A DNA stretch of 13,671 nt from Candidatus Hodarchaeota archaeon. GTDB lineage: Archaea; Asgardarchaeota; Heimdallarchaeia; Hodarchaeales; Hodarchaeaceae. Below, one piece after another: positions 1 through 191 of the stretch. The notes below the pieces were generated by a model, which was not told the DNA's origin, searched no databases, and worked only from the letters and a program-made list of their open reading frames with translations. Each line of letters starts with the position of its first letter. Position 1 is the stretch's first letter. The translations under genes were made by a program, and so were the position numbers. The stretch covers positions 1 through 13,671 of the forward strand of contig JAEOSP010000298.1 in the NCBI GenBank assembly GCA_016840305.1, given 5' to 3'.

Positions 1-112
1 CCGGGTGTGACTCAGGCCCTTTGGCCGAAGAACCTTCAGCTTTCTGATTTTCCCGTAGGCGCGAGCACAACAGTACAGATCAGAACGGAGCCTGACTTAA
101 CTTTCGGCAATA
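1..112 (-). rRNA. 5S ribosomal RNA, circularly permuted, 3' end cut by window edge
   Basis: Read on the minus strand, this block carries the hallmarks of archaeal 5S rRNA in rotated order. The AGTTAAG loop (102-96) is followed by the helix II 3' strand (95-88). Next comes the helix V/IV arm: TTCTGAT at 85-79 pairs with ATCAGAA at 48-42, enclosing CTGTACTG (78-71) and CGGGAAAA (55-48). Helix I follows, 40-34 pairing with 30-24 (7 bp, one G-U), closed by the triloop GTT (33-31), where a normal 5S has its free ends. Then come loop A-like CAAAG (23-19), the helix II 5' strand (19-12, pairing with 88-95 over 8 bp) and ACACCCGG (8-1), the start of helix III. From CGAAAG to CTGTACTG the order and spacing match canonical 5S as I remember it, and helix substitutions are compensatory. 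The conserved loop C should lie just outside the window. The exact 5' end, near 108-112, is inferred. Confidence 0.85.
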
Positions 113-183: not shown

Positions 184-191
184 TTTAAATA
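184..191 (-). promoter_or_regulatory. TATA box, probably for the 5S rRNA gene
   Basis: TTTAAATA on the plus strand (TATTTAAA on the minus strand) is the best TATA-like element in the region. Read on the minus strand it would start transcription near 160-163, giving a leader of about 50 nt before the 5S body. The element is nearly symmetrical and fits the archaeal consensus slightly better on the plus strand, so direction is assigned from the neighbouring RNA gene. It is too far upstream to be the obvious promoter of mptE. Confidence 0.5.

Follow-up and report, generated by a model that had tools for sequence, protein, structure and literature searches.

Circularly permuted 5S rRNA genes in Asgard archaea and the predicted splicing of their transcripts into circles

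The window, that is, the whole stretch of 13,671 nucleotides analysed here, comes from a Candidatus Hodarchaeota archaeon, and bases 114 to 1 on its minus strand hold a 5S rRNA gene in which the 3' half leads. The contig end truncates the gene, and loop C and the 3' strand of helix III are missing from the window, lying beyond position 1. An earlier reading of the letters without database searches (the sequence-only reading) had proposed a circularly permuted archaeal 5S rRNA gene at this place. Reading the minus strand, we found the helices where it had put them, with helix II at 95-88/19-12, helix V at 85-79/48-42, and helix I at 40-34/30-24 around a triloop at 33-31. The features are as follows (loci are numbered with L and genomes with G).

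184 to 191, minus strand: TATA-like box TATTTAAA, a putative promoter seen in the sequence; an A/T box lies at the equivalent place in L016, L023, L021 and L025
108 to 114, minus strand: GATATTG, predicted leader strand of the outer helix of a bulge-helix-bulge (BHB) motif; pairs 7 of 7 with the trailer CAATATC in relatives L030 and L032
104 to 107, minus strand: CCGA, leader strand of the BHB central helix; pairs at 3 of 4 positions with CCGG, the 3' strand of helix III in the 5' half
101 to 103, minus strand: AAG, predicted leader-side bulge, from relatives with an identical leader; joining gives CCGGAA followed by GTTAAGT
between 102 and 101, minus strand: predicted cut, from relatives with an identical leader, giving a mature 3' half that starts at G101
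41 to 101, minus strand: 3' half of 5S rRNA (GUUAAG, helix II 3' strand, helices V and IV), from sequence, a partial Rfam match and covariation
88 to 95, minus strand: helix II 3' strand, partner 19-12, from sequence and covariation in both alignments
79 to 85, minus strand: helix V first strand, partner 48-42, from sequence and covariation in both alignments
68 to 71, minus strand: helix IV first strand, partner 58-55, with a U69-U57 mismatch in the window, from sequence, minimum free energy (MFE) folding and covariation
55 to 58, minus strand: helix IV second strand, from sequence and MFE folding
42 to 48, minus strand: helix V second strand, from sequence and covariation
34 to 40, minus strand: helix I 3' strand, from sequence and covariation
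31 to 33, minus strand: triloop GUU capping helix I, the site of the free ends in ordinary 5S, from sequence
24 to 30, minus strand: helix I 5' strand, from sequence and covariation
1 to 23, minus strand: 5' half of 5S rRNA (loop A, helix II 5' strand 19-12, loop B, helix III 5' strand CCGG 4-1), ending at the contig end

The triloop of helix I is replaced by a UUCG tetraloop in L003 and L011, and the central-helix leader is CCGG in L034 and L036, which gives four of four pairs against three of four for CCGA in the window. Between the putative TATA box and the 5S gene, a leader hairpin (GTTTGTAA-TC-TTACAAAC) occupies bases 143-160 of the minus strand; L018 has a hairpin of other sequence at the equivalent position, and the hairpin may thus be conserved.

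A scan of the whole window against Rfam (E up to 1) returned neither 5S nor mtPerm-5S, the family of permuted mitochondrial 5S rRNAs, which are reportedly linear and lack a BHB. The 5S model RF00001 reached 17.3 bits on the window against a cut-off of 38, matching the 3' half alone with unrelated sequence preceding it. Because this model assumes the ordinary order, the low score reflects a failure of detection and not of identity. There was likewise no match of mtPerm-5S in the first 300 bases of the window (E up to 10) or in five complete permuted loci (L016, L026, L003, L004 and L011; E up to 1), where, in those sequences that RF00001 matches weakly (the window, L003 and L011), a lower-scoring match of the same clan would be masked.

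We scanned a genome collection of 84,980 species for the motifs of the 3' half followed by ACACCCG of the 5' half, 30-55 bases past GGGAA. Fifteen of the 27 stretches found were permuted 5S genes, all from Asgard archaea: 12 from Hodarchaeota or Heimdallarchaeota, three of them on records of 1.4 to 4.9 Mb labelled as chromosomes, and one each from Odinarchaeia, Helarchaeota and the 'archaeon' Dive96_bin3.136. The other 12 stretches were discarded, nine as noise (eight bacteria and one Methanolinea) and three, from Halorussus, as ordinary 5S genes with a chance ACACCCG. Window bases 1-105 are identical to L010, and bases 1-116 are 99% identical to L007. The continuation past position 1 that the sequence-only reading had asked after was found in relatives whose contigs do not stop there: UCUCAUUCCGAACCCGGAA and then a trailer such as ACAAUAUC, corresponding to loop C, the 3' strand of helix III and the outer strand, are visible in L016, L023, L015 and L007. 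In the closest relatives CAATATC comes after CCCGGAAA, and this would be the window's own trailer beyond position 1.

Homologues of the MptE-like, PTPS, thioredoxin reductase and HerA genes of the window lie beside the permuted 5S gene in many Hodarchaeota and Heimdallarchaeota loci, the MptE-like gene being the commonest neighbour and HerA occurring in four loci, and the locus is therefore orthologous. The identical order on three chromosome-scale records, together with this conserved neighbourhood, excludes the assembly rearrangement against which the sequence-only reading had warned. An ordinary copy elsewhere, the other outcome it had feared, was not found above the Rfam cut-off in 13 genomes with a permuted gene, the two weak matches being the permuted loci themselves; these checks on continuation, rearrangement and ordinary copies were made in relatives of the window. 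We also considered that the contig end might have cut through a tandem of ordinary 5S genes, and rejected this: in the loci read with their upstream sequence the 3' half has no 5' half before it, and few bases separate the two halves.

We then asked how well the helices hold across related genes. Among 12 such genes the 28 named pairs were paired in 95.8% of cases, with changes on both sides in 17 of the 28, and none of 500 shuffles reached any of the five measures. An alignment of 87 distinct genes (101 matches in 100 loci), which was fitted to the structure model, had 95.3% of its cells paired and a covariation score of 0.96, compared to at most 0.11 with slid partners, and 0 of 500 shuffles reached either value; sliding the partners by one base lowered pairing to about 38%. 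Double-change pairs (28, shuffle average 26.6) and pair types (98, shuffle average 96.9) did not rise above the shuffles among these 87 genes. All five 5S helices covary. The conserved blocks GUUAAG, loop C and loop E are invariant or nearly so in alignment A1. MFE folding of the closed circular core gave helices I to V, with most or all of their pairs, in 11 of 12 genes, and the 0 of 7 pairs of helix I in the twelfth, L003, result from an alignment register shifted by one. The order of the halves, the closed helix I and the covariation of the five helices together support the claim of a circularly permuted archaeal 5S rRNA gene.

We searched the 227 genomes of the phylum with covariance models of the permuted core, R1 and then R2 (built from the 101 matches). 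Since R1 also matches ordinary 5S genes, a genome was counted as permuted only where the swapped order was read. In a control phylum, that of Halorussus, R1 matched 176 of 246 genomes at E up to 0.001 with a best score of 62 bits, all six matched loci that we read (L190-L193, L195 and L196) had the ordinary order, and a tandem of ordinary 5S genes does yield a match (L190); the R1 score was thus rejected as proof of permutation. Permuted order was read in 139 of the 227 genomes. This number is made up of 126 genomes found through R1 (123 with both ends and the position of loop A, G008 and G012, and G153), 12 more through R2, among them G034, whose gene is cut by a contig end after the start of helix II, and G085 through a weak Rfam match; ten R1 matches that overlapped an ordinary 5S match had been removed.

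RF00001 exceeded its cut-off in 64 of the 227 genomes, five of which are permuted genomes. In G043, one of the five, RF00001 hits the permuted locus itself; the gene matched in G026 has the ordinary order and contains an intron; and in G054, G111 and G135 (L203, L204 and L201) the match is a bacterial-looking 5S, whose sequence and flanking rRNA-like ends point to probable contamination. Ordinary-order 5S genes above the Rfam cut-off thus occur in 63 genomes, four of which also have a permuted copy; about two dozen of these genes were read, and the others are assigned by Rfam score. In the remaining 134 of the 139 permuted genomes, searched using Infernal with stricter filters, RF00001 gave no match above cut-off, and in the smaller comparison it exceeded the cut-off in 0 of 13 permuted genomes versus 11 of 14 control genomes. 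Neither kind of 5S was found in 29 genomes, where one may still exist, as the stricter filters lose weak matches. On an RpoB tree of 57 genomes, eight changes between states were needed, and branches supported at 95 or above require a minimum of three changes for the ordinary order and of five for the window type. The tree was made by a quick method from 67 genomes, of which nine had no RpoB match and one, fragmentary, was dropped; G085 is absent from it.

The ends of the window-type gene lie between helix III and GUUAAG, where leader and trailer form a BHB in relatives. The sequence-only reading had placed the new ends in helix III or loop C; for the window type they lie just beyond, in loop B, 3' of helix III and before GUUAAG. 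It had also taken GCCG at 108-105 for a strand of helix III, but these bases belong to the leader, and it is in the precursor alone that CCG at 107-105 would pair with the 3' strand of helix III. The BHB at the ends, and the spread of the permuted gene over most of the phylum, had escaped it.

The splicing endonuclease cuts each three-nucleotide bulge of a BHB after its second base. In the permuted genes the leader consists of the outer strand, CCGG and AAG, and the trailer of CCGG, AAA and the outer strand; cutting both bulges after the second base and joining the ends gives CCGGAA followed by GUUAAG, which is the ordinary 5S sequence. Other lineages are one base over in register, with CGUG-AAA in the leader and CACG-GAA in the trailer giving CACGGA followed by AGUUAAG, and their central helix has changed on both sides. 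Under a strict rule (bulges of three nucleotides, no fewer than three of four central pairs, and an outer score of 4 or more), a BHB was present in 76 of 119 genes with both flanks, compared to 715 (5.5%) of 13,038 mismatched pairs, in which leader and trailer come from different genes; four of the 123 genes had flanks too short to be counted, and all are genes of one phylum and hence related. The duplex energy of the whole flanks averaged -20.2 kcal/mol, whereas sampled swapped pairs averaged -11.7 kcal/mol, and some outer helices are long (13 pairs in L060, 15 in L070 and 14 in L057). The outer helix carries most of the weight, because helix III by itself keeps the central CCGG conserved and the genes are not independent; central pairing on its own proves little.

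The strict rule was missed by 43 of the 119 genes. A perfect central helix with few or no outer pairs beside the bulges was seen in L047, L049-L051, L058, L059, L062, L067, L069, L077, L078, L080, L082, L083, L087 and L089-L091, and inspection of the Helarchaeota gene L040 suggested an enlarged 3' bulge. The window itself holds the leader strand of its BHB only, with an A.C mismatch among its four central pairs. Leader CCGG can alternatively pair with the 5' strand of helix III, and the MFE folds of some precursors favour that pairing. The splicing endonuclease domain PF01974 was present in all 13 permuted genomes tested, and the ligase RtcB (PF01139) scored above its cut-off in 11 of the 13, the match in G009 being partial; of the other two, G001 (1.4 Mb) gave no RtcB match and G011 a fragment below the cut-off.

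Taken together, these results lead us to propose, at a probability of about 0.84, a 5S gene with swapped halves whose transcript is predicted to be cut at the leader/trailer BHB by the tRNA-splicing endonuclease and then ligated into a circle. The gene would be transcribed from its own promoter, leader and trailer would pair into the BHB, and EndA would cleave both bulges. Ligation, probably by RtcB, would then close the circle and restore the ordinary 5S sequence, and the resulting 5S would be used in the ribosome. The mature molecule would stay circular, with a short loop, GUU here and UUCG in several relatives, at the end of helix I. The best-supported mechanism is splicing at the BHB, which would turn the permuted precursor into a circle.

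Further permutation points and introns were seen in the same kind of gene. Loop C is the permutation point in six genomes (G100, G119, G120, G123, G125 and G126), with a BHB motif seen by inspection, without a control, and joining would give ACCCGGUC followed by CCAUCCGAACCCGG (ACCCAGAA followed by ACAUUCCG in G100), the intact loop C sequence found elsewhere. The gene of G085 opens on the 5' side of loop B, where a BHB, again by inspection and without a control, would join AUCGGAA to ACACCCG. Inserts of about 30 bases interrupt 21 of the 123 window-type genes, in loop C, helix III, helix IV or the helix I loop. Candidate BHB introns of this size were noted across the permuted genes in L139, L141-L148, L151, L152, L154-L156 and L158 for loop C, L114 for helix III, L133, L140 and L143 for helix IV, and L134, L136, L137 and L207 for the helix I loop. 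In single-insert genes, which are related to each other, the removal that best restored the sequence of an insert-free relative coincided with BHB geometry in 16 of 20, where 0.75 would be expected from the local background. No BHB was found among the best-restoring placements in the other four of the 20 (L134, L136, L137 and L145).

The ordinary-order gene with an intron mentioned above, L297 (G026:C117:8000-8700, minus strand), is archaeal-looking, adjoins a tRNA-Thr gene, and may come from another organism in the bin. Its 22-base BHB intron sits exactly at the window-type permutation point, between CACGGA and AGUUAAAC, which suggests a possible route by which a permuted gene arises. These permutation points and introns would make sense if 5S precursors are routine substrates of the splicing endonuclease. 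We also noted an ordinary-order 5S gene, L278 (G212:C15:39750-40200, minus strand), in which roughly 30 extra bases, with no evident BHB geometry, separate GUUAA from helix II.

The predicted mature 5S likely stays a circle, a point on which we are less sure than on the swapped order and the splicing. The circle closed at the BHB might instead be reopened in the helix I loop to give ordinary 5S ends, as with permuted pre-tRNAs, whose transcripts are circularised and then cleaved to the standard tRNA form according to the available text of PMC10085705. The variation of helix I loops in length and sequence between lineages is compatible with such a step, but the loops are short, often UUCG on a perfect helix (L003 and L011), with no processing signal seen, and inserts in them were noticed in just the four genes listed above; we consider reopening unlikely, while according it some weight. 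A second alternative is that the permuted 5S works in linear form with its ends at loop B, as in some mitochondrial 5S rRNAs, leader and trailer being simply trimmed. Circularly permuted 5S rRNAs do exist, as the part of PMC10085705 available to us records, and the outer helix is weak in many genes. However, the leader repeats a helix III strand at a fixed place and with BHB geometry, the ordinary sequence results from joining at each of the three permutation points, and genes of this kind also contain BHB introns, all of which makes a linear form quite improbable. A pseudogene, contig-end artefact or assembly chimera, which the end of the window inside the gene and the five MAG contigs that stop at or near it (L007, L010, L015, L021 and L027) might bring to mind, is already refuted as far as sequence allows by the covariation, the synteny with the four neighbouring genes, the three chromosome-scale records and the lack of another 5S above the Rfam cut-off in 134 of 139 permuted genomes, and its probability is negligible.

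Splicing of a permuted precursor into a circle has its closest parallel in the permuted SRP RNA gene of Thermoproteus, for which the tRNA splicing endonuclease cuts the ends, ligation yields a functional circle, and the ordinary gene had been missing from annotation, as the accessible text describes (Plagens et al., 2015, PMC4731332). Both are essential structural RNAs with a permuted gene, a TATA box of its own, putative in the case of 5S, and no annotated ordinary gene, and in both the joining of leader and trailer sides after the endonuclease cut, which for 5S is predicted, restores a functional loop. Unlike the SRP RNA case, which in that text concerns two named species, the present one concerns 5S rRNA, most of a phylum, three permutation points and additional BHB introns, with a circle that is predicted. 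Permuted tRNA genes of Thermofilum pendens and of the red alga Cyanidioschyzon also carry a BHB at their termini, in the portion of PMC3218864 consulted. They share with the 5S genes the leading 3' half in one transcript, the terminal BHB and the short sequence between the halves, but 5S is a ribosomal RNA and, in contrast to what is described there, reopening of the circle is not indicated for it.

Circularly permuted 5S rRNAs have been described in organelles (Valach 2014, as cited in the accessible part of PMC10085705); mtPerm-5S resembles the present genes in its swapped halves and differs in being organellar. In archaea, 16S and 23S rRNAs, but not 5S, are excised and circularised according to the excerpts of PMC12918454, where circular 16S and 23S are reported for Asgard archaea, and their BHB processing and circularisation are also treated in those of PMC7758197 and PMC7714728; the enzymes and motif are the same as those proposed here, but the genes are in ordinary order. 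Circular 5S forms in Halobacterium and Sulfolobus have been suggested, in the available text, to be part of 5S degradation (PMC12558985). In one study of complete Asgard genomes 5S rRNA genes could not be predicted (PMC8813620), while 5S genes were reported in two other Asgard lineages (PMC9723677), and as far as the accessible parts of both papers go, this fits the mixture of permuted and ordinary genes found in the phylum. The sequence-only reading had known of no described archaeal permuted 5S, and our search of the literature, which covered open texts, in part as excerpts, and left preprints and most subscription papers outside, likewise found no report of one.

On balance we lean towards a wider reading, held with less assurance than the splicing itself, in which most Asgard archaea, including the Hodarchaeota relatives, have a covalently circular ribosomal 5S made from permuted genes, the permutation has originated or shifted position several times, at sites where BHB introns can occur as well, and the sequence order of 5S depends on the tRNA-splicing machinery. 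If this is true, the splicing endonuclease would be essential for the large ribosomal subunit. We know of no other case in cellular organisms of a ribosomal RNA gene being permuted in most members of a phylum. The 5S rRNA is a universal part of the ribosome, now read in permuted order in 139 of 227 genomes of this phylum and with a model that aids its detection, and the swapped halves would explain why 5S is missing from the annotation of some of these close relatives of eukaryotes. A circular 5S is a directly testable prediction in archaea held to be near the eukaryote root. The ordinary genes, the intron-bearing genes and the three permutation points form a natural series in which to study how RNA genes become permuted.

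The ends of MAG contigs at or near permuted 5S genes, at position 1 in the window and in the five contigs named above, suggest two near-identical copies or strain variants. Two model matches each were found in G008 and G013, and L057 (genome G056) holds two permuted 5S copies in tandem on the minus strand, at 1344-1459 and 1501-1616.
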